Assembly (NCBI GenBank): GCA_017445755.1
Contig: JAFSSE010000017.1
Span: 1-64,000 of the forward strand
Reading direction: 5' to 3'
Source: Bacteroidales bacterium
GTDB taxonomy: Bacteria > Bacteroidota > Bacteroidia > Bacteroidales > UBA932
DNA: 64,000 nucleotides
Below, piece by piece: positions 982 to 19,752 of this stretch. A program made the position numbers and the translations under genes. A model generated the notes under the pieces. The model saw nothing but the letters and a program-made list of their open reading frames with translations, ran no database searches and was not told the DNA's origin. Numbering within the stretch: position 1 is the stretch's first letter; every line of letters begins with the position of its first letter.

Positions 982-1596
982 CTACTTGTCAAATTTCTTT
1001 ATCTGGAACTTGAAGCCGCAGGTCGGGCAAGTGACATCTGCCAGATCCTGCGCTTTCTTCTTCTGTTCAAGGCCTTCCTCAATCTTCTTCTCGGCCGCTG
1101 CCACGTCCTTGCTGGTCGTGATTGAGTTCTGCTGCGTCGGATTGAGGTTCGGCTTGAAGTCCTCCCCCATCGCCTTGGTCTCAACGTCCCAATCTTTCGT
1201 GGTCATGCCCCACTTCTCGGTCATGTACTGAAGGGCGGATTCATCCCACTCCAGGTTCTGCTCAGCAGTGGCATTGTCGGCCGTTGACATGTCCCTGCCT
1301 TTCTTGGAGTCCAAGGACAGATCCTTTCTCTTGACGGCAACAAGCGTGTCCGCATCGGCATCCACAATGATGACCTTCTTTACGCCCTCGGCCTTGGACG
1401 CCTCCTTGGACTTGTTGCCAGCAATCAGGCGATTGTTCTTATCGATGAGCACGGACTTTCCGGCGCCCAGTTCACGGAATGACTTACGCAGCAGCTCCTG
1501 GCCATGGAGCGTACCGCGGTTGGCATTGGCGTTGTCAAGAACGAGCTGGTCGATATCAACCACCTCGGCCGTTTTCTTATTCTTCTTCGTTGCCAT
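982..1596 (-). CDS. ParB-like nuclease-domain protein with C-terminal zinc ribbon (copy 1)
   Basis: About 204 residues from ATG at 1596 (MATKKNKK). Residues about 14-120 match the phage ParB/Srx-like domain: IDQLVLDNANANRGTLHG, then GAGKSVLIDKNNRLIAGN, the loop that carries the CTP/nucleotide-binding region in ParB-type folds. The C-terminus ends in a CPTCGF motif (CxxC), half of a zinc ribbon. It is a diverged tandem paralogue of the gene just upstream and overlaps it by 20 bp. No helix-turn-helix of chromosomal ParB is seen, so a partition role is not shown; phage ParB-like proteins have been linked to DNA binding or nuclease activity. Confidence 0.75.
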   Translation of the reverse strand: MATKKNKKTAEVVDIDQLVLDNANANRGTLHGQELLRKSFRELGAGKSVLIDKNNRLIAGNKSKEASKAEGVKKVIIVDADADTLVAVKRKDLSLDSKKGRDMSTADNATAEQNLEWDESALQYMTEKWGMTTKDWDVETKAMGEDFKPNLNPTQQNSITTSKDVAAAEKKIEEGLEQKKKAQDLADVTCPTCGFKFQIKKFDK

Positions 1597-2110
1597 GGTC
1601 TTCCGGGAAAAATTCAGTGAAACATCTGGGGCAGATGACGGCCGGCGCCTCCGCTGCATCGAACTTCTTGGCCTGGCTTTCCGTGGCCAGCTCGGCCTGC
1701 TCCTTTTCCAGTCCCCAATCTTCGCGCTTGAAGCCGAACTCCTCCTCGGCTTTTTTCAGGGCTTCCTTGTTCCATGCAAGGTCGGCTTTTCCGACAGCAT
1801 TGTCAGCAAGGGCCATTTCCCTCCCCTCCTTCGTGTCAAGGTCTATGTCTTTACGCCGGACGGCCACAAGGACTTCACCTTCCGTTTCCACCACAAGCAC
1901 TTTCTTGATGCCCTTCTTGATGGATGACTGCGCGGTCTTGTTTCCAGCCACCAGCTTGTTGTCTTTGTCAAGCAGGACGGAACGGCCGGCACCGAACTGT
2001 TCAAGGGAGCGGTCCAGCAGCTCTCGGCCTCTCTCCGTTCCAGCATTGACGTTTGCGTCATCACTGACAAGCTGGTCAATGTCGATTTCTTTGATTTCGT
2101 ATTCCTTCAT
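1577..2110 (-). CDS. ParB-like nuclease-domain protein with C-terminal zinc ribbon (copy 2)
   Basis: About 177 residues from ATG at 2110 (MKEYEIKEIDIDQL). It shares the block order of its neighbour: an Asn-rich loop and GTERGRELL, then GAGRSVLLDKDNKLVAGN, then RRKDIDLDTKEGREMALADN. It also ends with a CPRCF motif. The two copies clearly arose by duplication but have diverged through most of their length. It is the first gene after a 180-bp gap that holds a strong hairpin, so it may head its own transcript or be controlled at that leader. A role in segregation, nicking or anti-restriction cannot be chosen from sequence alone. Confidence 0.75.
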   Translation of the reverse strand: MKEYEIKEIDIDQLVSDDANVNAGTERGRELLDRSLEQFGAGRSVLLDKDNKLVAGNKTAQSSIKKGIKKVLVVETEGEVLVAVRRKDIDLDTKEGREMALADNAVGKADLAWNKEALKKAEEEFGFKREDWGLEKEQAELATESQAKKFDAAEAPAVICPRCFTEFFPEDHGNEEE

Positions 2111-2130
2111 AGCGCGATGAGTAACAAACA

Positions 2131-2173
2131 TAAAGCACCCCTGCCACGGCTTATGCCGTAGGGCGGAGGTGCT
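2131..2173 (-). promoter_or_regulatory. Structured leader hairpin upstream of ParB-like copy 2
   Basis: On the minus strand a 7-bp outer stem (AAGCACC with GGTGCTT) encloses a bulged region and a 5-bp inner stem (ACGGC with GCCGT) around an ATAA loop. The 3' side is about 20 nt from the ATG at 2110. There is no T-run after it, so it is not a standard terminator. It may be an RNA leader, a processing site or a DNA dyad. Confidence 0.5.
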
Positions 2174-2291
2174 TGTTGACAATAGATTTGAACTCCGAAT
2201 TAAGGAGCGTTGCAATTATAATCATTTTTCAGCGATTTTGCACCATTTTTGGCCCAAAACCGAGACAAAGATATGTAATTATTACACATTT
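2174..2291. other. AT-rich spacer without a gene
   Basis: With the hairpin, this is the only gap over 150 bp in the leftward operon. It is AT-rich, and I see no convincing TTTG-N19-TAnnTTTG promoter on the minus strand and no gene. It may hold an internal promoter for a phage sigma or activator. Confidence 0.3.
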
Positions 2292-3098
2292 TCAAACATT
2301 TTTAGGCAAAAACCGACTTACGGGGATTCCGGTTACCTTGAACGTGTCCAAGTTCATGTAGAAGCCGCGCGTGCTGATGACTGCATCCTTGAATAGCTGC
2401 CACAGCAGACTCCCGGCCAGCTGAACGAGTGCGGAGTTCACGAACAGATCCTGCTTCTCAAGGGCCTCCGCCACTGAGCAGCTAGGGCCGGAATCCTTTT
2501 CGTCCACGAGCGTGTAGTCAAACTCCTCCGTGGCAAATGGGAGAATGCCGACCGGCCGATAGGCGTCCGACTTGGGCTGGTCAATCTTGGCACTGCCGAG
2601 GATGGCCTGGCCAGTACGCTGACCGTTGCCAAGGTCGAGCCAGTAGTACGTGGCGTTCTCGGGAATCATCGGAGCAGACCGCTTGCGCAGCTCGGCAAAG
2701 TGCTTGCCGATTTCCTCCCTGGTCTTGATGTTGTCAACACAGGTAATGACAATATTCGCCATTACAGAGGCAGAATACTTCTTCGGTTCGGCATTCCAGT
2801 CCAAGCCGAAAAAGCGGTTTATGCGCGTGATGAACGCCTGTGCCTTGTTCAAGCCAATCTCGCCATCGGAGAACAGCTGCCGGCCGATGTTGGCTTCCGT
2901 GACCGTGTCGGGGTCGTATGCGGTTACCTTCAGTCCCGGATGGCCCATTGCATACAAGGCATGGTCTATCCTGGCGAGGGCTGAAAGCATCTGACAACCG
3001 CTGCCACCAACACCAACGAGGTCGATGCTGATCCTGTGGACGGGATTCAGGAAGTAGGGTGCAACAAAATGCACGTAGGGTTTCTTTTCTTTAGACAT
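2292..3098 (-). CDS. PRTRC system ThiF family protein
   Basis: About 268 residues from ATG at 3098 (MSKEKKPYVHFVAPYF). It is an E1/ThiF/MoeB-type adenylating-fold protein: the nucleotide loop GVGGSG near residue 30, then YDPDTVTEANIGRQLFS (the conserved D and the N-x-x-R-Q of E1 enzymes), then ITCVDNI. The typical ThiF zinc CxxC pairs are absent. This arrangement fits the ThiF member of the PRTRC cassette (ParB-related, ThiF-related), whose function is unknown. The other recognisable PRTRC genes (B, C, E) lie 7-10 kb upstream in the same operon, an unusual split. Two ParB-like genes follow directly. Confidence 0.8.
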   Translation of the reverse strand: MSKEKKPYVHFVAPYFLNPVHRISIDLVGVGGSGCQMLSALARIDHALYAMGHPGLKVTAYDPDTVTEANIGRQLFSDGEIGLNKAQAFITRINRFFGLDWNAEPKKYSASVMANIVITCVDNIKTREEIGKHFAELRKRSAPMIPENATYYWLDLGNGQRTGQAILGSAKIDQPKSDAYRPVGILPFATEEFDYTLVDEKDSGPSCSVAEALEKQDLFVNSALVQLAGSLLWQLFKDAVISTRGFYMNLDTFKVTGIPVSRFLPKNV

Positions 3099-3444
3099 GT
3101 TGCTTTTGTTCTTCTGTGTTCTGTTTCTTCTTTGCCTGCTGCTTTTCGTAGGCGTCAATGATGAGACCGAGCCGATAGGTGGCTGCATCGCCCAAGACAA
3201 CGATAATGCGGCGTTCCGTCGATGGCAACTGGCACCTCTTCTGGAGGCACAACTTGTACTGCTCGGCGATGTAGTCGGCACTCCATTTCACCCTTTCATA
3301 CCCCCCCCTCCTGAAGTACCTGCCATGCTCGGCTGCTGCCCTCTCTGCCTTGTTGCGCTCCTCCGCATAGGCACGCATTTCATCGCGGACGCACTCCACG
3401 AACAGCTCATCCATCGTGACTATGGTCTTACCCCTCTTGGTCAT
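3091..3444 (-). CDS. Hypothetical protein
   Basis: 117 residues beginning MTKRGKTIVTMDELFVE. It is highly charged, with a Lys/Gln-rich C-terminal tail (AKKKQNTEEQKQ). It overlaps the ThiF gene start by 8 bp and the previous gene end by 17 bp, as expected of a translationally coupled operon. No family recognised. Confidence 0.6.
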   Translation of the reverse strand: MTKRGKTIVTMDELFVECVRDEMRAYAEERNKAERAAAEHGRYFRRGGYERVKWSADYIAEQYKLCLQKRCQLPSTERRIIVVLGDAATYRLGLIIDAYEKQQAKKKQNTEEQKQHV

Positions 3445-3886
3445 GGCTCATCGTTTTACTGGTTTCTGCAATCTCTTTCTGGAAGTCAGCTATCTGCTGG
3501 CGGATGTGCTCTTGCGTTTCCTCATACTGCTTCAGCTGCTCCTCCGTGTAGCGAGGTGCACCGAGGCACCAGTTCTCGTAATTCAGGTGCTTCATGCTGA
3601 AGTCGTGAGGCCCACCTTCCATTTCCTGCTGGGTCAGCTCGATGGTGTGAACGCGCAGCATGTAGTCAAAGTACTTCTCGAACTCGCCCACAGGCACGTC
3701 ATTGTCAATGTCGTAGCGAATCTCGGTCATGTTGGCAGAGAACCCATCCTCACCAAGGATGACGATATCTCCGACTTCCTGGCGCGGCCAATAGGCATCC
3801 TCAAAGGGAATGTCATGCTTCTTGCAGAACTCCCGAAGATAGTCATTGCAGACCGCATTCCAGCGAGTTTTCAAAAGGTCTTTCAT
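3428..3886 (-). CDS. Hypothetical protein
   Basis: About 152 residues from ATG at 3886 (MKDLLKTRWNAVCNDYL). The last third is probably helical or coiled (EEQLKQYEETQEHIRQQIAD). No catalytic motif is evident. It overlaps the genes on both sides by a few bases. Family not recognised. Confidence 0.6.
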   Translation of the reverse strand: MKDLLKTRWNAVCNDYLREFCKKHDIPFEDAYWPRQEVGDIVILGEDGFSANMTEIRYDIDNDVPVGEFEKYFDYMLRVHTIELTQQEMEGGPHDFSMKHLNYENWCLGAPRYTEEQLKQYEETQEHIRQQIADFQKEIAETSKTMSHDQEG

Positions 3887-4182
3887 TCTGCTTCCTCCTC
3901 TTTCTCCACGCCCTTGAGCATTTCGCGGACATAAATCTGGTCGGCCAGATCCAGTGTGCTCTTTCCGGCCTTGATTTCCTCGTAGGCCTTGGCCATCTTC
4001 TCGGGCTTCCACAGGCCCTGACGATGCAGGCGCTCCCACGGCCCGTCCGATGCGACTATGTTCTTTTCCTTGTAGAGCTTTTCAAGGACAGCTCTGTTCT
4101 CCTCGGCCACTTTCATAGCCTTCTCAATCTTTGCTACCTGGCCGGCCTTGCCGGTGGTGGCGGTCTTAGCACTCTTTGCCAT
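3883..4182 (-). CDS. Small charged hypothetical protein
   Basis: 99 residues, Lys/Ala/Glu-rich (MAKSAKTATTGKAGQVAK at the N-terminus, VEKEEEAE at the C-terminus), likely helical. Its stop overlaps the next start by 4 bp. Genes on both sides overlap it, which supports it being real. No function assigned. Confidence 0.55.
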   Translation of the reverse strand: MAKSAKTATTGKAGQVAKIEKAMKVAEENRAVLEKLYKEKNIVASDGPWERLHRQGLWKPEKMAKAYEEIKAGKSTLDLADQIYVREMLKGVEKEEEAE

Positions 4183-4456
4183 AATCTTTAACTGGTTTAT
4201 TGGGTTTCTTGTGGTACTTCGTACCGGTTTTCAATCTTCTGTTACGCTCTGCGGTGGCCTCGCTCCGGAGACAGCCACAGGAGCGAGTGATACCCCTTGT
4301 CAGGTTCGTTCCAAGGGTGTTGAACTCAACTCCGCAATCACAACGGCACCGCCATATCGTAGTGCGGTTGTCGGACATATCGTTCTCCTCCAGAACGACT
4401 ACCCTGCCGAAGCGGAGACCTGTCAGATCCTTGAAGTTCCAAGCGTGCTTGTCCAT
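4166..4456 (-). CDS. Small zinc-finger protein of the AP2/HNH-associated type
   Basis: 96 residues from ATG at 4456 (MDKHAWNFKDLTGLRFGR). The order RFGRVVVLE, then WRCRCDCG, then TRSCGCL is the four-cysteine module often found at the N-terminus of phage AP2-domain or HNH homing endonucleases and as a free-standing phage protein. Here no AP2 or HNH part follows; the tail is basic (RNRRLKTGTKYHKKPNK). Nucleic-acid binding is likely; nuclease activity is not supported. Confidence 0.6.
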   Translation of the reverse strand: MDKHAWNFKDLTGLRFGRVVVLEENDMSDNRTTIWRCRCDCGVEFNTLGTNLTRGITRSCGCLRSEATAERNRRLKTGTKYHKKPNKPVKDYGKEC

Positions 4457-4457
4457 A

Positions 4458-4655
4458 TCAGCCAATCTTTGTGAACAGGATATCCGTGCGCACAATGGTC
4501 TTGTGCCATTCAATCTTATCCTCGGCAAGCGCCTGGGCGAATGCCACGTCTGTTGGCTTGTGGGCGCCAAGCTCGAACCAATGCTTGAACTTTCCGCGCT
4601 GAACAAACACGCGATGTACGCCGTTGTCGTCTCTTTCGATTCTTGCCTTTGTCAT
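4458..4655 (-). CDS. Small hypothetical protein
   Basis: 65 residues from ATG at 4655 (MTKARIERDDNGVHRVF), preceded on the minus strand by a clear GGAG ribosome-binding sequence about 8 nt before the start. That is unusual for Bacteroidota and supports this start over the in-frame ATG further upstream. No family recognised. Confidence 0.5.
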   Translation of the reverse strand: MTKARIERDDNGVHRVFVQRGKFKHWFELGAHKPTDVAFAQALAEDKIEWHKTIVRTDILFTKIG

Positions 4656-4670
4656 AGTGCTATCTCCTAT

Positions 4671-4742
4671 CAAAAAGGGGCGGGCCGCATACCCCATCGG
4701 TATCAATATTTATTCGGTTATTCGTTAAACATAGCGGCCCTT
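4671..4742 (-). promoter_or_regulatory. Candidate folded RNA leader
   Basis: In the 97-bp gap between two genes the minus strand has a 7-bp closing stem (GGGCCGC with GCGGCCC, about 50 nt apart) and a small hairpin (ATACC with GGTAT) stacked against the 3' strand. The end of the structure is close to the GGAG site of the next gene, so it could control its translation. It has no T-run. Confidence 0.35.
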
Positions 4743-4752
4743 TCATAAGTGA

Positions 4753-5406
4753 CTACTTTACCAACTTGAATGAGTAAACAAACACCCAAGGATTCTTCTC
4801 CCATGTGCCCTTTCCGGAAATCTTGTCAATGAGAGCAGCGAAGGCATCGCGAGGCGAGTTGTAGCACATTTTCGAGCCATTGAAAGCATATCCGCTTGCA
4901 TAGTAGGAAAGCCCATCATGGTCTTCCAATTCAATGGGTTCATGATATACTCCCTCGCGCAGACACTCCTCCTCACTGATGCCCTGTAGCCGCTCTACCT
5001 TGATGCTGGTGATCCGGATGCGGTTTGGCATCAAGGTTGGGCGAACAAACATCTTGTTTCTCCAGCCGGCACTCTCTGTTACCTTGCCAAACTCATAAGC
5101 TGAATGACCGTTTGCTAGCCGTATGCGCTTTGCCACCGTTAGGCATTCTGAAATACCGAGATCCTTGTACGGTTGCGCGACGGCAATGACCTCGCCAATA
5201 TTGTATTTTGGCTGAAGCTCTTTCGGGGCAAACAAAGAAGGAAGTCCAGTGTCAAAATATAAGACGCCATTTTCAATAAACGCATCGATGACGGAGCCCC
5301 AACCATAATTACTAAAGTCATAAATAATCCGTCGCGTCATTGTCTTTGTCCCTTCTAGAACGGCCTTTGTGAGGCCATAATGGTCATCAAACATTATCTT
5401 CTTCAT
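4753..5406 (-). CDS. ASCH-domain-like phage protein
   Basis: 217 residues. The order KAVLEGTKTMTRRI near the N-terminus, YNIGEVIAVAQPYKD, RPTLMPNRIRITSIKVERLQ, and the C-terminal NPWVFVYSFKLV is the pattern of ASCH/YqfB-like phage proteins that bind RNA or modified nucleotides. The conserved K-T-x-T-R-R block at the ligand-facing edge is intact. The biological role in phages is unknown. It is separated from the next gene by the structured leader at about 4.7 kb. Confidence 0.65.
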   Translation of the reverse strand: MKKIMFDDHYGLTKAVLEGTKTMTRRIIYDFSNYGWGSVIDAFIENGVLYFDTGLPSLFAPKELQPKYNIGEVIAVAQPYKDLGISECLTVAKRIRLANGHSAYEFGKVTESAGWRNKMFVRPTLMPNRIRITSIKVERLQGISEEECLREGVYHEPIELEDHDGLSYYASGYAFNGSKMCYNSPRDAFAALIDKISGKGTWEKNPWVFVYSFKLVK

Positions 5407-5415
5407 ATCACCCTC

Positions 5416-6084
5416 CTACAAGTCAATACATTCAACGGGGACTTGGTTCACGCACGGCATTACACCTGCATAGATGCCATTCTGAAGCTCTATCTTCATG
5501 CAGCCTGTTTCGCTGAACGCCGTGACATGGAGGTTGGTTTCTCCGAGCATGTTCCAGGCATTGGCAACGACAGCAAGGACGGGGGCAAAGAACTGCGCCT
5601 TCTTATCTCCGTGCTTGATGCGGAATGCCGCCAGCGAGCTAACCGGCCTGGCCATTCCGGGAACTATTGCATGAGGGTTGCTATTGAGCTTGCCAGTGCC
5701 GCCACAGACGGGGCAATCACCCTTTCGGTCATAGGTATCAACTCCATCTTTCGCCCAGTACACCCACGTCACCTTTCCTTTGCCATTGCACTCCGGACAA
5801 TTCTCCTCCTCCGGGTGGCGTTTCAGTCTCTGGTACAGATCCTTGATGTTGATGTCGAACTTGTCAGAGACACCAAATTGAACATTGGCCGGGGATGCCT
5901 TTTCGTTTGTGGGCATACTCCCAAAAGTCGGCAGTAACGTCTTCGGTACAACAATAATCTTCTTTCCATCCGTTCCACAGATGTGGCCATCGCCATCATC
6001 GTAAGGCGCACGGAATCTTTCCTGCGCACCGCTCGGCAATTCGCAGAACGTGGTAATGATTTCAAACAATAACTTTTCGTCCAT
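5416..6084 (-). CDS. Hypothetical protein with DnaJ-like zinc motif
   Basis: 222 residues from ATG at 6084. A central pair of CxxCxGxG motifs (CPECNGKG and CPVCGGTG, about 30 residues apart) forms a DnaJ-type zinc finger. The C-terminal part (LAVVANAWNMLGE onward) is regular alternating sheet-like sequence of unknown fold. No J domain is present, so it is not a chaperone. It sits between small phage proteins of unknown role. Confidence 0.6.
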   Translation of the reverse strand: MDEKLLFEIITTFCELPSGAQERFRAPYDDGDGHICGTDGKKIIVVPKTLLPTFGSMPTNEKASPANVQFGVSDKFDINIKDLYQRLKRHPEEENCPECNGKGKVTWVYWAKDGVDTYDRKGDCPVCGGTGKLNSNPHAIVPGMARPVSSLAAFRIKHGDKKAQFFAPVLAVVANAWNMLGETNLHVTAFSETGCMKIELQNGIYAGVMPCVNQVPVECIDL

Positions 6085-6089
6085 AACTG

Positions 6090-6476
6090 TTACTTTTTGA
6101 TGACAATCTCAACACGCGCAGGCTCCAGGTCTTCCCACTTGACGGACGGAAACGCGTCCTTGTCAACCTTTATCCATTCCCCCATTTCGCAGGGGCGTCC
6201 CCACGATGCTCCGTGGTCGAAGTTCATCTCCTTCTGTGGCACTGATACCCACAAGCGGAGCTTTCCGTTCTTATCTCTGGCAAGCCACCCTTCCATCTTA
6301 AACACAGCCTCATCGCTTGGCTTGACATTACCGCGGTTGGCATTCCAGAACCTGTCCTTGCACTCCCTGGAGCAGAAGGCCTGCGAGTACTGGGCCTTCT
6401 TGAACTTCTTGTGGCAGACCGGGCACTCGATTTCGGAGCCAACGGCCGCTTTCTTATTGTCGTGATACTTACTCAT
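6090..6476 (-). CDS. Small zinc-binding hypothetical protein
   Basis: About 128 residues from ATG at 6476 (MSKYHDNKKAAVG). The N-terminal half holds CPVCHKKF and then FCSRECKDRFW, a CxxC...CxxxC zinc knuckle like those in short phage DNA-binding proteins. It overlaps the gene upstream by 8 bp. Function unknown. Confidence 0.6.
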   Translation of the reverse strand: MSKYHDNKKAAVGSEIECPVCHKKFKKAQYSQAFCSRECKDRFWNANRGNVKPSDEAVFKMEGWLARDKNGKLRLWVSVPQKEMNFDHGASWGRPCEMGEWIKVDKDAFPSVKWEDLEPARVEIVIKK

Positions 6477-6861
6477 AGACCGTGAACTCCTTTTCGATGT
6501 GGCACACGTTGAACACGTTCTGCAGCTCGTGCATGGCGCTGACGAAGCCCTCAAAGTATCTGTAATCCACCATGCGGTCTGCATCGCCTTGCCTTGCCGA
6601 GATCCAGAGGCCTTCATCGTCTACATCAACCACCACGGCGGCTTGCTGGGCCTTGTCCTCAAACTCCCACTCAAGCTTGCACTCCGCCTTGACAAAACCG
6701 TTCTTTTCCAGCAGCTCCGTTGTCAAAGGGATTGGCTTAATTTCGCACAGGTCAAGAAGACCATCGACAACTCTCGCGTCGTTCTTCTCGACGCCGGTCA
6801 GTTGGTAGTTCCATCCGTCGAAGCTCACAATGTCTCCGAACATCAATTCTTTTGCTTTCAT
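6469..6861 (-). CDS. Hypothetical phage protein
   Basis: 130 residues from ATG at 6861 (MKAKELMFGDIVSFDG); the in-frame upstream extension would run through a perfect hairpin and is rejected. The layout (KELMFGD at the start, then IKPIPLTTELLEKNGF) is one I associate with a common family of unknown function in Bacteroidales phages and conjugative elements (recollection). Its transcript begins with, or is cut at, the hairpin immediately upstream. Confidence 0.6.
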   Translation of the reverse strand: MKAKELMFGDIVSFDGWNYQLTGVEKNDARVVDGLLDLCEIKPIPLTTELLEKNGFVKAECKLEWEFEDKAQQAAVVVDVDDEGLWISARQGDADRMVDYRYFEGFVSAMHELQNVFNVCHIEKEFTVYE

Positions 6862-6875
6862 GCTATTGCCTTTTT

Positions 6876-6920
6876 CTTTGCATCCTCGCCCTTTGAAATA
6901 GGGCGAGGACAGCAAAGGTT
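6876..6920 (-). promoter_or_regulatory. Strong two-part hairpin leader
   Basis: On the minus strand an outer 6-bp stem (CTTTGC with GCAAAG) and an inner perfect 10-bp stem (TCCTCGCCCT with AGGGCGAGGA) surround a 7-nt loop, with only 1-2 unpaired bases between the stems. It ends about 20 nt before the ATG at 6861. No T-run follows, so it is not a simple terminator. Confidence 0.55.
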
Positions 6921-6931
6921 TCAAAGTAAAT

Positions 6932-7600
6932 TCATCGGACGGGGCGCACCGAGAAGCCGTAAGCGCGGTTGCTGTCGTTCAACGGATAGACGCTGCCCGA
7001 ATCGAAGTACAAGTTGTACGCGTAGGTCGCACTGTAATTCACGCTCGGAGTCTTGGTCCAGATATCACCTTCGTCTCCGTCATACTTGACAGGGCCACCT
7101 TTCCAAGTGTAGCCATCGGCCGGGAAGAAGATGGACTTGCCATTCGGGCCGGTGAACTTCATTCCGGGCTTTCCGTTCTCGGTAACCCATTCATGAGTGC
7201 ACTCGGTTGCCAACTCTACGGCCTGGGCCGCGGTAGGCATCTGGTCACCGAACAAACCGATGGCCTCATCAAAGTCGAACAGTTTCTTGCCGTTATGCTC
7301 GGCATTGTTCTTCGCCCAGAGCGTTCCGGAAGTCAGGCCCAGATCCACGAAGCCAGTGGCTTCTTCTTCCGCGGTGCTGGCCTCGCTTACGATGGTGTCA
7401 ATAACGCCAAGCGTAGTGGCGCCACTGACGCGGTCATCCGCGATGCTGATTCCAAACTCCCTGTCAATTTCAGACAGGAGCGTTGCCCGGTCGAGCGAAT
7501 CGAAGCCGAGAGAGTCCAAACTGTTGGAGGTGGCGAGTTCTCCTTCAAAGCCGAGGGTTTCGCGATATCGTTCTACGATAGCAATAAGACGTTTGTTCAT
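6932..7600 (-). CDS. Acyl-carrier-protein domain fused to a C-type-lectin-like (FISUMP/DUF1566-type) domain
   Basis: 222 residues from ATG at 7600. Residues 1-75 look like an acyl carrier protein: helix 1, then LGFDSLDRATLLSEIDREF with Ser35 in the DSL phosphopantetheine site, then an acidic loop. From about residue 85 the sequence (FVDLGLTSGTLWAKNNAEH, FFPADGYTW, YNLYFDSGSVYP, GFSVRPVR at the end) matches the Fibrobacter-major-paralogous-type C-lectin repeat common in Bacteroidales surface proteins. This fold is also used by variable proteins of diversity-generating retroelements. There is no signal peptide, so it is cytoplasmic or part of a virion. The fusion is unusual; I know no function for it. 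Confidence 0.65.
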   Translation of the reverse strand: MNKRLIAIVERYRETLGFEGELATSNSLDSLGFDSLDRATLLSEIDREFGISIADDRVSGATTLGVIDTIVSEASTAEEEATGFVDLGLTSGTLWAKNNAEHNGKKLFDFDEAIGLFGDQMPTAAQAVELATECTHEWVTENGKPGMKFTGPNGKSIFFPADGYTWKGGPVKYDGDEGDIWTKTPSVNYSATYAYNLYFDSGSVYPLNDSNRAYGFSVRPVR

Positions 7601-7614
7601 AATGTTGCTGATTT

Positions 7615-7824
7615 TTATTTCTTACGTTTCTTTTCTTTTTGCATACGGAGGGCGTACAGGCTTGGCGATTCATAGCCTTCGCAATCATCGGCCGGCTCAA
7701 GCTCTGGCCAGAGCCGATATCCGAAACGGCGGCAGGCCTCCCAGCGTTCACCCTTCCAGACTTCGTCCCGGTAGTGAGCGCAGGCGCCACACTTGGTGCA
7801 CTTCCTCCAGTACTCCTTACTCAT
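7615..7824 (-). CDS. Small cysteine-rich protein
   Basis: 69 residues (MSKEYWRKCTKCGACAHYR) with CxxCxxC near the N-terminus, further cysteines at about residues 31 and 48, and a basic tail ending KEKKRKK. A metal-binding role is likely; no family named. It overlaps the next upstream gene by 8 bp. Confidence 0.55.
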   Translation of the reverse strand: MSKEYWRKCTKCGACAHYRDEVWKGERWEACRRFGYRLWPELEPADDCEGYESPSLYALRMQKEKKRKK

Positions 7825-8128
7825 TGGCTTTCTGCTCGGGAGTCAGTACATCCAGATAGCAGTTGTCGCCATCAACAATGATGAATCCGTCAAGCAGCCG
7901 TGACAGCTTCATTGCGAGGTACTGCGCGGTTATCTTTTGCGGCTTATCAGCGCAGAGCCGTACGGTACGGCGGAGATGCTTGTCATACTTGAAGGCAAGG
8001 TCATCACAGACCTTTCTCTGGCTTTCTAGCTCCTGGGTTAGGGAATTTACCTGCTTCTTGCGCAGGAACGCGACAGCGGCTAAAACAAGGACTGCCACGG
8101 CGAGGATTACAATGATTACTGTTTTCAT
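7817..8128 (-). CDS. Small single-span membrane protein
   Basis: 103 residues. Residues 3-22 (VIIVILAVAVLVLAAVAFL) form one hydrophobic helix followed by a positive RKK, giving N-out/C-in or signal-anchor topology. Then comes a helical region that may coil (QVNSLTQELESQRK). A holin- or spanin-like role is possible, but the gene lies among replication genes, so that is a guess. Confidence 0.55.
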   Translation of the reverse strand: MKTVIIVILAVAVLVLAAVAFLRKKQVNSLTQELESQRKVCDDLAFKYDKHLRRTVRLCADKPQKITAQYLAMKLSRLLDGFIIVDGDNCYLDVLTPEQKANE

Positions 8129-8153
8129 GGTGTAGAACTATTTGGGTTGAACA

Positions 8154-8489
8154 TTAACTTTCCGGCTCAGTGATGACATCGATTTCATCTGCGACCACGA
8201 TGGTCTGGGTGCGGTCATAGCCCTGCTGGTCTTGGTACTGATCCTGTTTGATGCGACCACAGACGTAGAGCTTCTGACCGCGAACGATACGGTCTGGGGT
8301 GGCGCGGCCGAAACCGGCCCATGACTCCACTCGATGCCACGTTGTCTCTGTTTGCCAATCTCCGTTGGCGTCCTTGTACGAACGGTTGGTTGCTAGCGTG
8401 AACCTTGTCACGGTGGTGTTGCCAACGTCTCTGGTAGCATCCACGCTACCTACGTGTCCTTTCAATTCAATTCGGTTCAAATCTTTCAT
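8154..8489 (-). CDS. ssb: Single-stranded DNA-binding protein
   Basis: 111 residues from ATG at 8489 (MKDLNRIELKGHVGSVDA). It has the OB-fold pattern of bacterial SSB: the N-R-x-x-L-x-G start, TRFTLATNRSY, then WHRVESWAG and LYVCGRIKQDQYQD. It is short, and the acidic DDDIPF-type tip is replaced by a short ending (DEIDVITEPES), so binding to host partner proteins through the tip may be weak. It is located with the helicase loader and initiator, consistent with phage or plasmid replication. Confidence 0.85.
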   Translation of the reverse strand: MKDLNRIELKGHVGSVDATRDVGNTTVTRFTLATNRSYKDANGDWQTETTWHRVESWAGFGRATPDRIVRGQKLYVCGRIKQDQYQDQQGYDRTQTIVVADEIDVITEPES

Positions 8490-8511
8490 TGTCTTAACTG
8501 TTTTTTGGGTT

Positions 8512-9183
8512 TTACATTCTTCTATAACTCTGGCCTGCATAGTACAGGCGGTCAAAGGTCTCGCTCATCCTGTCCTGCATACGTGCGCCATAGCGCTCGG
8601 TCAGCTCACGGTCTTCCAGATTCGTGGATATCACCGATATCAGCTGCTGGTTGTAGCGGTGGTACAGAACATCAAGAATCGGGGTGCGCTCCATGCCGTA
8701 GGTCATACAACGGACCGGCTCGCTGCCAAGGTCGTCGATGAACAGTATCTTGCTTTCCGCGAACTCCAGGTATCTGGATGCCTTTCCGTCTTGGTAGGCA
8801 AGGAACTGGTCAACAAGGTTGGTGGCCGACACGTAGCAGACTTCCGTCCAGCTCGACGCGCCATTCCTGACAACCTGGTACATAGCCTTCATCATCGTGG
8901 TCTTGCCGGTGCCCACCTTGCCATAGAGCAGAAGACCTGTCTTCCGGGTGGTGGCCAGCCACTGGCCAATCTTGCAGACCAGCTGCTGCGTTGCCTCATC
9001 GGGAACGAGCTCCCGGCCACGTGCTTCAACCTCGTAGATGTAGGCGCCGTACAATTCGCCAGCGAGCAGATCCTTTCCCTTTCCGGTGATGCGCTCCGGG
9101 AAACTATAACGTGCTGCTTCCCCCTTTGACTTCTTCAAGAGGGATAAGTACTGCTGAGCTACCTTGGTGATTGATTCTTCCAT
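8512..9183 (-). CDS. DnaC-like helicase loader ATPase
   Basis: 223 residues from ATG at 9183. AAA+ motifs: Walker A GKVGTGKTT near residue 88, Walker B ILFIDDLG near 147, and a sensor-like STN (VISTNL) near 187. This is the DnaC/IstB-type loader module that places a replicative helicase on an origin. The start overlaps the end of the initiator gene by about 80 bp, as in many phage O/P-type pairs. No helicase gene is seen in the window, so the host DnaB is the probable partner. Confidence 0.8.
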   Translation of the reverse strand: MEESITKVAQQYLSLLKKSKGEAARYSFPERITGKGKDLLAGELYGAYIYEVEARGRELVPDEATQQLVCKIGQWLATTRKTGLLLYGKVGTGKTTMMKAMYQVVRNGASSWTEVCYVSATNLVDQFLAYQDGKASRYLEFAESKILFIDDLGSEPVRCMTYGMERTPILDVLYHRYNQQLISVISTNLEDRELTERYGARMQDRMSETFDRLYYAGQSYRRM

Positions 9184-9970
9184 TTCCTTGATCCTTTAGT
9201 GAGAACAGACCCTGCCATTCATTGGCCATAGACTGGTCAACAATCATCCGCATCTTCCACGTCTGGCCATCCGCAAGATTAACGAGGTGGGCATACCCCT
9301 TCTCGACGCCTTTCTGCGTTCCGTAGGGCTTGCCTGCCTCGATACGGAAATCAATCCAGTCTTGGAAGATGGCAAGCCGTTCCTGGTCCTCGATGAACGA
9401 GAGGTCGGGGACGAACTTGGGCTTGCGGACTTTTTCTTTTGAGGGTTTTTCTTTTTCAGTAGTAGATATATTACTTTCTTCTTTTATTAAAGAAGGGAGT
9501 ATATCATCCCGTGATTCCGCGGAATGCATTCCGCAATTCTGCGGAATGGAAACCACGCCATTCTGAGCGGGATTTTTGAGCATTTCCGATTCCGCAATTT
9601 CGCGGAATGGACTCCGCAATTCTGCGGAATGCATTCCGTAGTTTTGCGGAATGGAACCCAGATAGTTCAGGAACTTATCCGAGAACGTGTACCAGGCAGT
9701 CCGGTCGGTCGGGTTGTCATTGAATGACCCCTTTACCAGAACTCCGGCACGGAGCAGTCCGGCAATGTGCCGCTGCACCTTGTCTTCGCTCAGGTAGGGG
9801 AACAGTACCGCCATCGAGCGCTGCGAACTGCAGGCCCAGAAACGCCCATCATGGAAGTGCTGACTTTCGGCAGCATTCTTCTCGATCCAAAGGGCGAAAT
9901 AGTACAACAGTACCGCCTTCTCAACGCCGTAGTCCTTGGCTACCTGCGGTATGAATGAGTGTACTATCAT
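9104..9970 (-). CDS. Phage-type replication initiator with internal iterons
   Basis: 288 residues from ATG at 9970. Residues 1-100 look like a winged-helix initiator domain (EKAVLLYYFALWIEKN, then YLSEDKVQRHIAGLLRAGVL), as in DnaD/O-type phage proteins. A low-complexity middle part carries a repeated IPQNxGMHSAE peptide, which is the translation of palindromic DNA repeats. The C-terminal part after residue 200 is a second helical domain. The lambda O gene likewise contains the origin iterons, so origin binding at 9514-9652 is the natural inference. The DnaC-like gene follows. Confidence 0.7.
   Translation of the reverse strand: MIVHSFIPQVAKDYGVEKAVLLYYFALWIEKNAAESQHFHDGRFWACSSQRSMAVLFPYLSEDKVQRHIAGLLRAGVLVKGSFNDNPTDRTAWYTFSDKFLNYLGSIPQNYGMHSAELRSPFREIAESEMLKNPAQNGVVSIPQNCGMHSAESRDDILPSLIKEESNISTTEKEKPSKEKVRKPKFVPDLSFIEDQERLAIFQDWIDFRIEAGKPYGTQKGVEKGYAHLVNLADGQTWKMRMIVDQSMANEWQGLFSLKDQGNGRINHQGSSAVLIPLEEVKGGSSTL
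9514..9652. repeat. Palindromic iteron cluster, candidate replication origin
   Basis: Five related palindromes: ATTCCGCGGAAT at 9514-9525, then 20-bp units at 9528-9547, 9589-9608, 9611-9630 and 9633-9652. Each is built from ATTCCGCA facing TGCGGAAT, with 1-3 changes. The last three lie exactly 22 bp apart (about two helical turns). The cluster is inside the initiator gene, in the position of the lambda origin. Confidence 0.7.
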
Positions 9971-10320
9971 AGCGCGGGCAGGATTCCAAAGGGCAGCAAC
10001 ATATCGAAGGCAATCTTCTGGACGATTCTTGCCCTTTCCTCATCGTTGGCTGGGTGGTACTTTTCGTTGATGGCGTCTATGTCGTGATAGGCCTTGACGT
10101 GCTTCTTGGTGTTCTTTGTCTTGATCCAGACATCATCGCCAAGATTCACCTCTCTGCCAGCTTTGATTTCGGACATCCGGCCCTTGACATTCAGACTCCC
10201 ATATTGCTGGAGGCCAACCAGCGATGTGACTACGCCGCCGGCCTTCATTGTGGCAACCATCTTCGCTCTTTGCGACTGGCTGCTTCCCTCATTCGGGTTT
10301 TCGTTAACTTGAGTGTACAT
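9967..10320 (-). CDS. HTH_39-type helix-turn-helix protein
   Basis: 117 residues. The segment QSQRAKMVATMKAGGVVTSL, then YGSLNVKGRMSEIKAG and WIKTKNTKKHVKAYH, fits the small phage winged-helix family in which a first helix pair is followed by a short sheet. It lies between the initiator and PRTRC B with a 4-bp overlap and a 1-bp gap. It probably binds DNA, perhaps as a regulator or replication accessory factor. Confidence 0.6.
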   Translation of the reverse strand: MYTQVNENPNEGSSQSQRAKMVATMKAGGVVTSLVGLQQYGSLNVKGRMSEIKAGREVNLGDDVWIKTKNTKKHVKAYHDIDAINEKYHPANDEERARIVQKIAFDMLLPFGILPAL

Positions 10321-10321
10321 A

Positions 10322-11008
10322 CTATCTCATTAAGTCTTTCAACATATATCGGCCTTTGAGCAGCTGCTTGGTGTCAAACGGCTTCTCTCGGCTTTCTTTG
10401 AGAGCAAGCACCAGGTTCCCCTTCACCGGATTCGCACCGAGCAAATGGGAGTTCGTGCTTCCCCAGAACAAGGTCTCCCAGTATCGAGTAAGGGCAGACC
10501 AAGTGTAGTCCCTTGCCTTCGTCGCCTTGGCGTTACCGAGGCAGACATGGCAGTCATCATAGACGTTGAACATCGGATACCGGCTCAACTTCCGTTTGGC
10601 CGACGGGCGACTGCCCTTGAAGGCATAAACGGACAGCGTGCGGTCTCTGACCACGTACACGATGCCGGGGACATAGTAGTCACCATCTTCGATGGAAAGA
10701 CCGTCCACGAAGCTCATATTTCGTTTCTGCGGCGGGTTCCACCAGATGAAGGTCTTGTGGCCGGGCCGGTCATCAACGTACAGCATAGAGCTTGGCATGG
10801 CTCCGTGCGGGGTTTCAGCGAAGGATGTGGAGAACGTCTTGACCATTCCGTCAATCAAGCGCTTGCTGACGGGCTTTGCTTCACCGAAAGCACCATTTCC
10901 ATTGACGGGCCGGCTCTCCAAGTAGTACCTGTTGCTTGGCGAGGAATATGCTACAATCACCGCCTTGGGTGTGTAGGTCTCCTTCAGGGCTTGAGTAAGA
11001 TCCTTCAT
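10322..11008 (-). CDS. PRTRC system protein B
   Basis: 228 residues from ATG at 11008. The order matches the PRTRC-B family as I know it: AVIVAYSSPSNRYYLESRPV, a central MLYVDDRPGHKTFIWWNPP block, YVVRDRTLSVYAFKGS, and MFNVYDDCHVCLGNA with ALTRYWETLFWGSTNSH near the end. Its biochemical activity is unknown. It overlaps the F-like gene by 4 bp and belongs to the contiguous B/F/C/E block. Confidence 0.75.
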   Translation of the reverse strand: MKDLTQALKETYTPKAVIVAYSSPSNRYYLESRPVNGNGAFGEAKPVSKRLIDGMVKTFSTSFAETPHGAMPSSMLYVDDRPGHKTFIWWNPPQKRNMSFVDGLSIEDGDYYVPGIVYVVRDRTLSVYAFKGSRPSAKRKLSRYPMFNVYDDCHVCLGNAKATKARDYTWSALTRYWETLFWGSTNSHLLGANPVKGNLVLALKESREKPFDTKQLLKGRYMLKDLMR

Positions 11009-11928
11009 GACTTTATCACCTCCGGTAGTTTTGCAAGCGCTTCTACGAAACGCATATATCGGCCAAGATCCGGGTGCAGGCGTGGCTCTCCTTTCGGGGT
11101 TAGCACCACCTCATCAACGAGGACATCTTGCTCGGTATCTCCGCTCTGGTAGTAGTTGCTGATATCCTGGACTATCGTGTCGATAACGTCATCATTGTCA
11201 TACACGATGCTGAACAGCTCCTCGATGGGGTTCACAATCGGCTCACCACCATCGTAGTCGTTTTCATCAAAGTCGCGATACCGCGACACCGACCAGGCGA
11301 AGTTCTCAAGATAGGACGGATAATCATCTGCGATGAAATCGATGCCACTTGCCAGCAGGTCGTAAATGGCCTTGTCTGCCTTCTTCGGCTTGAATGCCAG
11401 AAACTCCTCGGCCGTGAGCAGTGGGGCTTCGTAGAACTCGTCTATGAGCTTGCGCGTCTTTCCGCCTGTGGCATAGGACTGGTACATTTCCATATCGTCA
11501 TCATCGAGTGAATCCTGATCATACATGACGTTCTCCAACAGGGCTTCAAAGTAGTAGCTGTCGTAGACACTGCACCAGCCACCTTTCTTGGCAAACGTGC
11601 GCAGGAATCTCCTGGCAAGCGCCCCGAACTTCTTGTCCTTGACCTTGAACGTCCATGCAAATGGAATGAAGTACACCATTTCGTAGTACATCGGCCAATC
11701 CTTCAGCACGAACTGGTATTCCTCCATTTCATCATCGTAGTACAGCTCGATGGACTCCTTGTCCTTTAGCAGATTGTTCATCTGGTCAAAGAGCGCTGCC
11801 AGCACCTCGGCATTGTCCTTCCCTTCGGGAATATCCAGCCTGGCGCCGCGGCTCTCCGCAAAGTTTGATGCCGAAGCAACCAGCCTGCGGAAAGCACGAG
11901 CGCCCAACTTGAACGGGAGGATGTGCAA
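11005..11928 (-). CDS. PRTRC-linked acidic protein, possibly protein F
   Basis: About 307 residues if it starts at TTG 11928 (LHILPFKLGARAFRRLV). A longer frame from further upstream exists, but its first 50 residues overlap a better ORF in another frame, so they are probably not coding. The protein is very rich in Asp, Glu and Tyr and mostly helical, without catalytic motifs. Its place between PRTRC B and C fits PRTRC F, but I cannot confirm the family by eye. Confidence 0.55.
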   Translation of the reverse strand: MHILPFKLGARAFRRLVASASNFAESRGARLDIPEGKDNAEVLAALFDQMNNLLKDKESIELYYDDEMEEYQFVLKDWPMYYEMVYFIPFAWTFKVKDKKFGALARRFLRTFAKKGGWCSVYDSYYFEALLENVMYDQDSLDDDDMEMYQSYATGGKTRKLIDEFYEAPLLTAEEFLAFKPKKADKAIYDLLASGIDFIADDYPSYLENFAWSVSRYRDFDENDYDGGEPIVNPIEELFSIVYDNDDVIDTIVQDISNYYQSGDTEQDVLVDEVVLTPKGEPRLHPDLGRYMRFVEALAKLPEVIKS

Positions 11929-11951
11929 CCTGGTCTGCTTGATCCTGTTCG

Positions 11952-12095
11952 TCAGAAAACTATCTCTAACAGGTCCACCGGCACTTCTATCAGTTCCGGC
12001 CGAGACCTGTCCCGGGAATCGTCCACTTCGTCCAAGATGAGCTTGGCCAGTGCTTCGACCTCTGCGTATGTCAATGCTTGCTTGCATTCTTTCAT
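11952..12095 (-). CDS. 47-residue ORF coupled to PRTRC C
   Basis: This short gene begins MKECKQALTYAEVEALAKL and ends VPVDLLEIVF. Its ATG overlaps the TGA of PRTRC C in a TGATG arrangement, typical of translational coupling, and it stops 23 bp before the TTG of the F-like gene. Composition is acidic and helical like its neighbours. No family recognised. Confidence 0.5.
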   Translation of the reverse strand: MKECKQALTYAEVEALAKLILDEVDDSRDRSRPELIEVPVDLLEIVF

Positions 12096-12304
12096 CAGCC
12101 TTTCGTTCCAACCGTTGTCTTGAACGTGTACACAAGGTTATCACCCTTGTACTCCGGGCCGTGCACGGATGACGTGACTAGCTCTGGATAGGTGTTCGAG
12201 TAGAACTGCATCACCTGGTCCGGCGTCATGCTGGAATCGGGGTCTGCAAGCGTGATGTTCTTCTTGTCAATGACAAACTTGCGTGTGAGTTTAATCTTGT
12301 CCAT
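12095..12304 (-). CDS. PRTRC system protein C
   Basis: 69 residues (MDKIKLTRKFVIDKKNI). The core LADPDSSMTPDQVMQFYS, then YPELVTSSVHGPEYKG and the ending TVGTKG, is the PRTRC-C signature: a short protein with the PDP-x-x-M-x-P-x-x-V box and a GTKG tail. Length is as expected. Function unknown. It lies 9 bp after protein E in the same operon. Confidence 0.85.
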   Translation of the reverse strand: MDKIKLTRKFVIDKKNITLADPDSSMTPDQVMQFYSNTYPELVTSSVHGPEYKGDNLVYTFKTTVGTKG

Positions 12305-12313
12305 GGCGACCTC

Positions 12314-12958
12314 CTATGCTTCAGGTAAATCATCATTCTGTTCCTGCTCCTCTGGCGCTTCTTCCTGCTCGGCAGGAGCTTCCTCGGCCGGCTGCTCCTG
12401 GGCAGGTGCCGCTTCGGTTTCTTCCTCGCCGAATCCATCACCGCTGAACAGGTCGGGGACGTCCTGCTCCTTGCAGTAGGCAATGCCTTCATCGCACTTT
12501 GCTTTATCGTCCTCGCTGGCGAATTCCTTGGCCGAAGTGAGGGCAGATATAGCTTCCTTCCATTTGCGTTCAGCCTGGGCCTTTTTAGCGGCATCCAGAT
12601 ACTTGGTGTACTGTTCCTTCCGGGCCTTTTCCTCCTCCTTCTCTTTCTTCTTCTGGTCGGCCAGTGCCGCGCTCTTGGCTTCGGCCACTTTCTTCGCCGC
12701 CTCGAACTCCTGCATGGAGGTCTGAAGCCCAGCGGACTCGGCAATCGGCTTGGATATCTCGGCCACGAAGCCGCCGTCCAGCTCGGCCGGTGTTCCACTT
12801 ACGATGAAGGGCTGAAGCAGATCCTTCGCTTCATCCTTGACGGCATTGTTGCGGAAGTTCACGCTGACGGTCATCTTGTCCTCAGCGAGTTTCCTGATGA
12901 CTATGGTCGTGTCATTGCCCACGCCCATAATCTTGTTCAATTCTTCAAACATGTTCAT
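12314..12958 (-). CDS. PRTRC system protein E
   Basis: About 214 residues from ATG at 12958 (MNMFEELNK) or 12952. The N-terminal 70 residues follow the PRTRC-E pattern (KLAEDKMTVSVNFRNN, then LLQPFIVSGTPAELDGGF). Residues 80-130 are a Lys/Glu/Ala-rich coiled coil. The C-terminal 50 residues are extremely acidic and proline-rich (APAEQEEAPEEQEQNDD), likely disordered. It is encoded between the VRR-NUC nuclease and PRTRC C. Confidence 0.8.
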   Translation of the reverse strand: MNMFEELNKIMGVGNDTTIVIRKLAEDKMTVSVNFRNNAVKDEAKDLLQPFIVSGTPAELDGGFVAEISKPIAESAGLQTSMQEFEAAKKVAEAKSAALADQKKKEKEEEKARKEQYTKYLDAAKKAQAERKWKEAISALTSAKEFASEDDKAKCDEGIAYCKEQDVPDLFSGDGFGEEETEAAPAQEQPAEEAPAEQEEAPEEQEQNDDLPEA

Positions 12959-12961
12959 AAT

Positions 12962-13366
12962 CTATTGTCTTTTGATGTTTCCATTCATGTAGAGCGTCAC
13001 CATGTCAATGAAGTCCTCCACGCTCCTGCATATACAGGACTTGTTGCCAGCGGCCTCGAACTCCTGCAGCCAGACCTTCTGGTCATCGTCAACCTTACCC
13101 TTTGGCGTCTTGAACTCGATGGCCAGGGCACCATAGCCACCTCTCGGAACGAGGAGCAGCATATCGGCGGCTCCCTTGACCATGCCCTCGGCTTTCGCCC
13201 TCTGTGCAGAAGGGCAGACGTAACGATAGCTGCCGTCCTTGCGACGGACTAGCTTCATGTCACGCTTCGCCTCGTTCGGCACCTTGATGAGCAGGCGCCA
13301 ATAGGTCGGGAATTGCAACCTAAACCACTGGACGGCTCCTTGCTGGATGAAACTCTCTTGATACAT
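12962..13366 (-). CDS. VRR-NUC domain nuclease
   Basis: 134 residues from ATG at 13366 (MYQESFIQQGAVQWF). It carries the compact PD-(D/E)XK fold of VRR-NUC proteins: an early QWF...P segment, then GAADMLLLVPRGGYGALAIEFKTPKGK (catalytic D, E and K in order) and DDQKVWLQEFEAAGN. Free-standing VRR-NUC proteins in phages act on branched DNA such as Holliday junctions; that role is inferred from the family. It is part of the recombination block with RecT-like and SbcC-like genes. Confidence 0.8.
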   Translation of the reverse strand: MYQESFIQQGAVQWFRLQFPTYWRLLIKVPNEAKRDMKLVRRKDGSYRYVCPSAQRAKAEGMVKGAADMLLLVPRGGYGALAIEFKTPKGKVDDDQKVWLQEFEAAGNKSCICRSVEDFIDMVTLYMNGNIKRQ

Positions 13367-13370
13367 TGTG

Positions 13371-13766
13371 CTAGTTGTTTTGGACTGGCCCGGAACCACA
13401 CTCCAGGGCCATCTGTTGCTTGATGAAACTTACCTGCGTGCGGATGTTGTCGCTCTGGTGGGTGCAAGCTGCATTCAGCCTGTCAAGCACCGTCACCATG
13501 GCAATCTCCTTCGCACACATATTCTCCACGAAGTCCTTCTGAACGGTTGCCGGCATCTTGCACAGCGAAGCGAAATGCTCCACCTGCACCGCCTTCTTAG
13601 CGTTCCGGAGTTCTTCTTGCGCCTTGCCGAGCAGTGTGCCAGCCCACGCCATGTAGGCATTGAGGTAGGACAGCCTGTCGGTCAGTACGTAGGGGTCATC
13701 CGGTGGCGCCACCTGCTTCAGGAACGCCTCCATTTCTTCGATTACTTTCAGTTCTTCCTGTGTCAT
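13371..13766 (-). CDS. Hypothetical helical protein
   Basis: 131 residues, almost entirely helical (MTQEELKVIEEMEAFLKQV). No motif identified. It lies between the MBL nuclease (1-bp gap) and VRR-NUC (4-bp gap) and is probably an accessory protein of the recombination block. Confidence 0.6.
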   Translation of the reverse strand: MTQEELKVIEEMEAFLKQVAPPDDPYVLTDRLSYLNAYMAWAGTLLGKAQEELRNAKKAVQVEHFASLCKMPATVQKDFVENMCAKEIAMVTVLDRLNAACTHQSDNIRTQVSFIKQQMALECGSGPVQNN

Positions 13767-13767
13767 A

Positions 13768-14505: not shown

Positions 14506-14508
14506 CTG

Positions 14509-15333: not shown

Positions 15334-15343
15334 AATGTTACAC

Positions 15344-19704: not shown

Positions 19705-19752
19705 AATGCTTTGCAAGCATGGGGTCGCCGGTTCGAATCCGACTACCTCCAC
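19705..19752 (+). other. 3' fragment of tRNA-Ala(UGC), candidate attR
   Basis: Bases 19705-19721 form an anticodon arm with loop TTTGCAA (anticodon TGC), then a variable loop, a T arm with TTCGAAT, the acceptor strand TACCTCC and A73. No D arm or 5' acceptor strand lies upstream, so it is not a working tRNA. The outermost anticodon-stem pair (A27-G43) is mismatched, which places the crossover edge near 19705/19706. The intact gene should be at the other end of the element, left of the window. Confidence 0.75.

Follow-up and report, generated by a model that had tools for sequence, protein, structure and literature searches.

A predicted ubiquitin-like conjugation cassette without JAB in a Bacteroidales prophage replication operon and its possible tie to the sliding clamp

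The window analysed here is the first 64,000 nucleotides of contig JAFSSE010000017.1 of a Bacteroidales bacterium (assembly GCA_017445755.1; genome of 2.18 Mb in 44 contigs), and its left part is occupied by a prophage whose replication operon carries a cassette of PRTRC genes (Table 1). As an earlier sequence-only reading had described, the genes for E, C, an F-family protein and B form one uninterrupted run at 10322-12958, with that for ThiF standing apart from them amid phage replication genes. PRTRC, the NCBIfam name, corresponds to the type 6d operon described by Iyer, Burroughs and Aravind (2006; PMC1779556). According to the relevant passages of that work, such an operon encodes an E1 and a JAB, a ubiquitin-like (Ub-like) protein whose C-terminal glycine is conserved, an E2 in which a cysteine is followed downstream by a histidine, and a helical protein. 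In this predicted pathway ThiF would be the E1, B the E2, C the ubiquitin-like modifier (Ubl) and F the helical protein. The assertion of the sequence-only reading that PRTRC has no known function is thus out of date, inasmuch as type 6d is a predicted ubiquitin-like pathway; in the literature found, no experimental function for the cassette was met.

Table 1. Cassette genes and associated features in the window (ORF, open reading frame; pLDDT, predicted local distance difference test; SSB, single-stranded DNA-binding protein)
Feature	Position	Strand	Matches and remarks
PRTRC E, proposed adaptor	12314-12958	-	TIGR03741 8.4e-13 (over cut-off); PF19556 2.4e-38; model pLDDT 86
PRTRC C, ubiquitin-like modifier ending at glycine (VGTKG)	12095-12304	-	TIGR03738 8.9e-21 (over cut-off); PF14454 Prok_Ub 2.8e-28
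PRTRC F family protein, mostly helical	11005-12144 (ORF)	-	1.1e-27 to F profile without this phage lineage; AlphaFold2 pLDDT 85
PRTRC B, E2-like (Prok-E2_D)	10322-11008	-	PF14460 2.1e-30 (over cut-off); TIGR03737 5.3e-21 (under curated cut-off)
PRTRC ThiF, E1-like adenylating enzyme	2292-3098 (ORF extends to 3281)	-	TIGR03736 1.1e-71 (over cut-off)
VPDLF, E residues 167-171, weak clamp-binding-like motif at start of disordered tail	12446-12460	-	Sequence and E model
SSB (phrog_44), DnaC-like loader (phrog_50), O-like initiator (phrog_11233, phrog_678)	8154-9970	-	PHROGs; between B and ThiF, plus small genes
VRR-NUC, 131-amino-acid gene, metal hydrolase, 'RecT-like' gene, SbcC-like gene	12962-17302	-	Upstream of E
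Two ParB-like genes	982-2215	-	phrog_620 ~1e-13 each; downstream of ThiF
Right attachment repeat	19723-19752	.	29/30 bases match 3' end of tRNA-Ala beside integrase in related record

Comparison with the PRTRC models, a check that the sequence-only reading had proposed, places E, C and ThiF over the NCBIfam cut-offs and B under that of TIGR03737 but over that of PF14460, while the F-like protein has no NCBIfam match, a PF14456 match at an E-value of only 0.046 and no significant similarity to the proteobacterial F. On the profile match given in Table 1, the protein between C and B is assigned to the Bacteroidota F family; its true start probably lies downstream of position 12095. Eight ThiF residues, covering the ATP site and the candidate catalytic cysteine, are invariant in 125/125 nonredundant relatives, and the B protein of the window phage has C156 and H188, i.e., the E2-type cysteine and downstream histidine, of which the former is kept in 126/126 relatives and the latter in 118/126. 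The best matches of ThiF among solved structures, albeit weak, are human UBA6 and UBA1, which come ahead of ThiF and MoeB, and C is a single domain of 69 amino acids. The case for the E1, E2 and Ubl assignments is hence strong, as judged from sequence, and there is strong support for reading the set as a ubiquitin-like conjugation cassette that lacks a JAB, carries its modifier in mature form and sits within a phage replication operon; that this cassette conjugates its modifier to proteins is predicted from the same features.

Relatives were collected with a four-row ThiF profile, taking the best 80 of 166 viral relatives (78 of these 80 being new) and the best 80 of 308 genome relatives; E, C, F and B were located in these loci by local profiles, and for nonredundant counts near-copies were merged at a ThiF identity of at least 97%. 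The usual Bacteroidota form is E-C-F-B with ThiF at most 300 bp from B and without A, as seen in 70/80 genome loci. Two others have a ThiF-B gap of 651 and 695 bp, and eight are without some cassette genes in the stretch read, five of them ending at a contig edge near ThiF (L110, L113, L114, L148, L165). In the other three Bacteroidota loci (L097, L098, L143) a PRTRC-type ThiF stands alone, with E, C, F and B not found in the stretch read. In L019, L028, L074, L120 and L152 the gap measures 498-695 bp. A ThiF more than 1 kb from B (about 6-7 kb) was encountered only in the window and in the loci L002 and L004 among the Bacteroidota-type loci surveyed; the split cassette was accordingly rejected as a general phage design, being limited among these loci to the lineage of the window phage. 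A fragment of another kind, the unannotated human-gut contig MT835919 (L011, 1-10931), has ThiF 4.8 kb from B in the order JAB-ThiF-clamp, followed further on by E2-like B, SbcC-like and primase-like genes and a gene resembling by eye a Rad52/ERF-type annealing protein, so that the cassette genes keep like neighbours in an element of a different kind; viral relatives of its ThiF were sought and none was confirmed. In an order-wide survey, the sample of which is small, 6/295 genomes had ThiF, two of them as fragments only and none with a second clamp. PRTRC-type ThiF genes are further found on 383/72,556 plasmid records, and also occur in numerous phages and chromosomal islands; the Vibrio plasmid pAM7 (L175) has two E2-like B genes in one cassette (2120-2851 and 6210-6953).

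In the passages on type 6d the JAB is described as always fused or adjacent (PMC1779556). As the contig begins at base 1 of the window, the left part of the phage was read from two near-identical IMG/VR contigs. The earlier remark that neither A nor D is visible held in this leftward extension: Prok-JAB (PF14464) was found in 0/2 related phage records, its control being positive in 11/14 genomes, PRTRC_D (TIGR03739) in 0/3 records and the PRTRC_A model in 0/3, with a silent control for the latter. The 60-kb contig of the two gave no match (with the PRTRC_A control silent), and the notion that A and D are concealed in the phage to the left of the window was rejected. A is absent from all 80 Bacteroidota-type genome loci, so that the JAB is not defining for the wider family; it occurs in 13 nonredundant viral loci, plus the fragment L011.

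This distribution is mirrored at the C-terminus of the modifier. C ends at the glycine in 134 of the 135 C proteins from loci without A, the exception (L031) ending GTKA, and has a tail beyond the glycine, for a total length of 128-157 amino acids, in 17/17 loci with A (107 and 14 nonredundant C proteins, respectively). Sixteen cassette plasmids were fetched through ThiF (15 of the above 383 by spread list and L009, also among the 383). A is present in ten of these, nine of whose C proteins have 2 to 84 residues past the glycine; the exception is a Sphingobium plasmid, in which A is present, yet C ends at GTKG without a tail. In the six plasmids without A (L009, L012, L172, L175, L181, L182) C ends in glycine. 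Two further A-bearing plasmids, fetched through the clamp (see below), have C tails of 61 and 82 residues, which brings the tailed forms to 11 of 12 A-bearing plasmids; for the four cyanobacterial C proteins included here, the assignment was made from position and motif rather than by profile. A reading of this rule as many independent events was rejected for the ThiF tree, where the JAB represents one change; the plasmids add lineages. The simplest reading is that the JAB would mature the modifier and that after its loss the modifier came to be encoded in mature form. We infer that a JAB-less cassette is without deconjugation and that its modification would be irreversible.

The predicted structure of the window E protein comprises a small head of alpha/beta type, a helix of 73 residues and a pair of helices extending to residue 165, with a low-confidence tail after it. 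For the family, L083 and L164 (structure-free rows) as well as copies of the window phage were left out before the statistics, and the JAB-type and three reference loci were dropped afterwards, which took the E rows from 115 to 101 nonredundant Bacteroidota-type rows; 98 of the 101 entered the column count. An LF-type motif is kept where the ordered part ends, with one column of the 98-protein alignment being F in 90/93. The pattern [STDNG]LF after residue 105 is present in 59/101 E proteins (shuffled mean 4.4, maximum 13), Q..[LMI]F in 30 as against 2.9 in shuffles, and the loosest form of the motif in 91 as against 15.2. In a control with 600 other genes of the same loci, [STDNG]LF was present in 155 of them against 90 and the motif ratios were only 1.2 to 1.7. 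Examples include QNSLF, QGSLF and QTNLF, as well as HPSLF at the extreme end, and the enrichment extends to loci that lack a clamp gene. These tails are comparable to the bacterial clamp-binding consensus, given in the relevant passages of two reports as QL(S/D)LF or QLxLF and often C-terminal (PMC9690074, PMC4549789). Additionally, four cyanobacterial genes in the place of E carry QLTLF, QLSLF, QRSLF or QMTLL at or near the end, their identity as E not being demonstrable.

A sliding clamp is also present in the neighbourhood of many cassettes. Clustering of neighbour genes yielded a family of 26 members; its representative (L011, 1679-2761) matches DNA polymerase III beta domains, with PF02768 just over its cut-off and PF02767 under. 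A DnaN-like clamp gene is found in 25/72 nonredundant viral loci, and it heads a clamp-E-C-F-B-ThiF run in 20 of the 62 with room upstream, at a clamp-E spacing of -13 to 109 bp. The clamp lies directly upstream of E in 3/50 nonredundant genome loci with room; this place is taken by a topoisomerase or DUF3945/DUF4099 gene in 29 nonredundant loci from genomes and 2 from viruses. Identity of the clamps to the first row of their alignment is 18-32%, so that the clamp-cassette arrangement is an old one; over the ThiF tree the clamp label undergoes 13 changes, at least six of which are forced by well-supported branches. On plasmids, the clamp is 4 kb past ThiF in Pseudomonas aeruginosa pPUV-14, directly after ThiF in pAM7, upstream of C in Aeromonas pQZ124-211 and upstream in Leptolyngbya pLBX, which has holA directly after ThiF. 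Two plasmids found via a search from the clamp show dnaN followed by ParB-E-C-F-B-A-ThiF-ssb (Xanthomonas euvesicatoria pXpT39.1) and dnaN 1.2 kb past ThiF, followed by a gamma/tau gene (Anabaena pANACY.02). Clamps look rare in general among plasmid and phage records, the clamp queries, which are less sensitive than the local profiles, matching 461/72,556 and 71/50,697 of them, respectively, in collections that differ; the comparison is an indication and no formal test. One gut phage with a clamp and no cassette (MT839543, 1697-3215) has after the clamp an ORF of 135 amino acids ending QFSLFEGL, which resembles a clamp-binding motif.

Taken together, these observations lend moderate support to the view that the sliding clamp is where these cassettes act, E being the dock, a targeting inferred from gene neighbourhood and motif. 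As the best overall explanation we favour, tentatively and at a probability that we would put somewhat below even, a ubiquitin-like conjugation system that is used in the replication phase of the phage and is tethered by E to the replication clamp. Under this proposal ThiF would activate the C-terminal glycine of C, which would be transferred to the active cysteine of B and then joined to a protein. C being encoded already mature, the cycle could begin without a JAB protease, and the cassette would have no means of its own to undo the modification. E would serve as an adaptor that holds the enzymes with its folded part and the beta sliding clamp with its flexible tail, and F would probably be a structural or specificity subunit. 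C could thereby be placed on the clamp, or on replication or recombination proteins at the clamp, as with the eukaryotic PCNA. Many relatives encode a clamp beside E; the window lineage has no clamp gene, so that its E would use the host DnaN. Of the roles suggested by the sequence-only reading, namely replication, maintenance or protein modification of a phage-like element, replication through protein modification is the best direction; that reading had missed both that the absence of A is normal in Bacteroidota and that relatives place a clamp gene beside E.

Several observations weigh against this proposal. The clamp targeting is weakest for the window phage itself, in which profile search found no clamp and whose VPDLF is out of register, F176 rather than F171 filling the conserved column in the family alignments. 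The motif counts are not independent, the E rows being related, and the E and F models have no fold match in the PDB at an E-value of 0.001 or better. Although the proteobacterial E is homologous to the Bacteroidota-type E (4.2e-16), only 4/13 proteobacterial plasmid E rows have an [LM]F end (SLF, QLF, ELF, QMF), the remaining nine ending in LLD (2), LL (2), RF, SF, LW, DL and EC, the last from an Aeromonas gene placed by position. Further, the clamp is present in only about a third of the nonredundant viral loci and in the stretch read of only 4/16 ThiF-fetched cassette plasmids. The clamp and the cassette were rejected as obligate partners, in that the reciprocal search from clamps failed: the cassette was found in 2/7 plasmids and 0/4 phage-collection records, leaving a clamp without a cassette in the other five and in all four, two of the latter looking by eye like chromosome fragments.

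In the foremost alternative, conjugation is real and the link to the clamp reflects mere co-residence in replication modules, the target being something else, such as ParB, a topoisomerase, SSB or a host protein. The 29 genome loci with a topoisomerase or DUF3945/DUF4099 gene in the place of the clamp, the plasmid cassettes that come after ParB and the clamps without a cassette all speak for it, whereas the persistence of the tight clamp-E adjacency across very diverged clamps and the enrichment of the motif in E tails, clamp-less loci included, count against it; we regard it as a serious, if doubtful, possibility. Far less probable is that the cassette is a weapon against other phages or the host, either tagging the virion proteins of rivals in the manner of Bil, a related system with E1, E2, Ubl and JAB for which action on phage tails has been reported (as cited in a passage of PMC12135933), or acting in counter-defence. 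The mobility of the cassette would suit such a role; however, it lies inside the replication operon and not among lysogeny genes, and on plasmids and phages alike it is again found next to replication genes. Least likely of all is that C carries sulfur and is no protein tag. A PAPS-reductase-domain gene does lie downstream in a related phage (L002, 13675-14841; PF01507 4.2e-18), and two plasmids (L012, 20724; L181, 11382-12500) have genes annotated as PAPS reductase family in the vicinity of their cassettes; against this, ThiF matches UBA6 and UBA1 ahead of ThiF and MoeB, and a conserved E2 bearing an invariant cysteine is not known from the sulfur-carrier pathways.

The element that carries the cassette is a temperate tailed prophage, as its integrase, attachment site and portal, read via a near-identical record, establish. 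The two IMG/VR contigs have a ThiF 99% identical to that of the window phage and, outside 4.7-6.8 kb, align at 95-98% to most of the first 19.7 kb of the window; collinearity with a related phage record stops at 19721. Beyond the left edge of the window, the 60-kb IMG/VR relative has a portal (PF05133 8.9e-28) and an integrase domain (PF13102 2.3e-14), while large terminase, capsid and tape measure are labels given by eye to its ORFs, with no supporting Pfam match. The sole stretch strongly unlike the near-identical relatives, at 4656-6843, lies between SSB and ThiF and is a swap region of small genes. Profile matches confirm the replication operon as previously read in respect of VRR-NUC (PF08774), the SbcC-like protein (phrog_77), the initiator, the loader, SSB and the two ParB-like proteins. 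The last of these match phrog_620 and no NCBIfam model at an E-value of 1 or less, that of PRTRC ParB included; a possible methyltransferase gene accompanies them beyond ThiF. The label 'RecT-like' for the gene at 14509-15333 was not confirmed, with no NCBIfam, PHROGs or PDB match and Pfam matches only at 0.038 or worse; the gene does occupy the place where a recombinase is expected. The phage also carries a diversity-generating retroelement (window 6932-7600; L005 4488-6098 and 6825-8120), with a reverse transcriptase gene (PF00078) and a template-like repeat, the tail-region target of which has 17/18 mismatches at template adenines. A second target-like repeat in the window, fused behind a phosphopantetheine-attachment domain (PF00550), has 9/15 at template adenines (11/13 in a relative).

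Among known systems, the window cassette resembles type 6d in its Ub-like C, its E1 ThiF, its E2 B with cysteine and downstream histidine, its F-family protein of predicted helical fold and its location on a mobile element, and differs from it in lacking a JAB, in its modifier encoded mature, in a ThiF about 6-7 kb off and in its setting in a phage replication operon. The Burkholderia phage BgVeeders33 (OK665841), also tailed, likewise has E, C, a gene in the F position, B and ThiF, but with a JAB (A) and a C-terminal tail on C; a clamp was not found in it. Bil shares the bacterial E1-E2-Ubl conjugation but is a defence system whose own JAB matures BilA, no clamp tie being described in the passages at hand (PMC11354881, PMC13373217). 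Its combination of a two-domain Ubl and a JAB is also unlike the single-domain C and the JAB-less set of the window. Literature searches, conducted mostly by listings, gave among the matches listed no report linking a sliding clamp with ThiF, JAB, E1-like or E2-like proteins, and the JAB-precursor rule, the clamp neighbourhood and the E-tail motif, none of which was found there, seem to be new. The clamp neighbour, the candidate docking motif of E and a minimal five-gene JAB-less set make this PRTRC-type system directly testable. Eukaryotic PCNA is modified by ubiquitin and SUMO, with the modifier put at the sliding clamp via a clamp-docked partner. The likeness of the cassette, known here from its genes, to this modification lies in the proposed working mode and is an analogy only. 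Pursuing it, one may speculate, with less conviction than we attach to the tethered conjugation system itself, that PRTRC is the bacterial counterpart of PCNA modification: mobile elements would put a Ubl on their own or the host's clamp and thereby take over replication forks, protect them or restart them, E being the adaptor docked at the clamp and the pre-matured modifier of the JAB-less lineages acting as an irreversible switch. If so, the ubiquitin-like marking of the replication clamp would have a counterpart in bacterial mobile elements.

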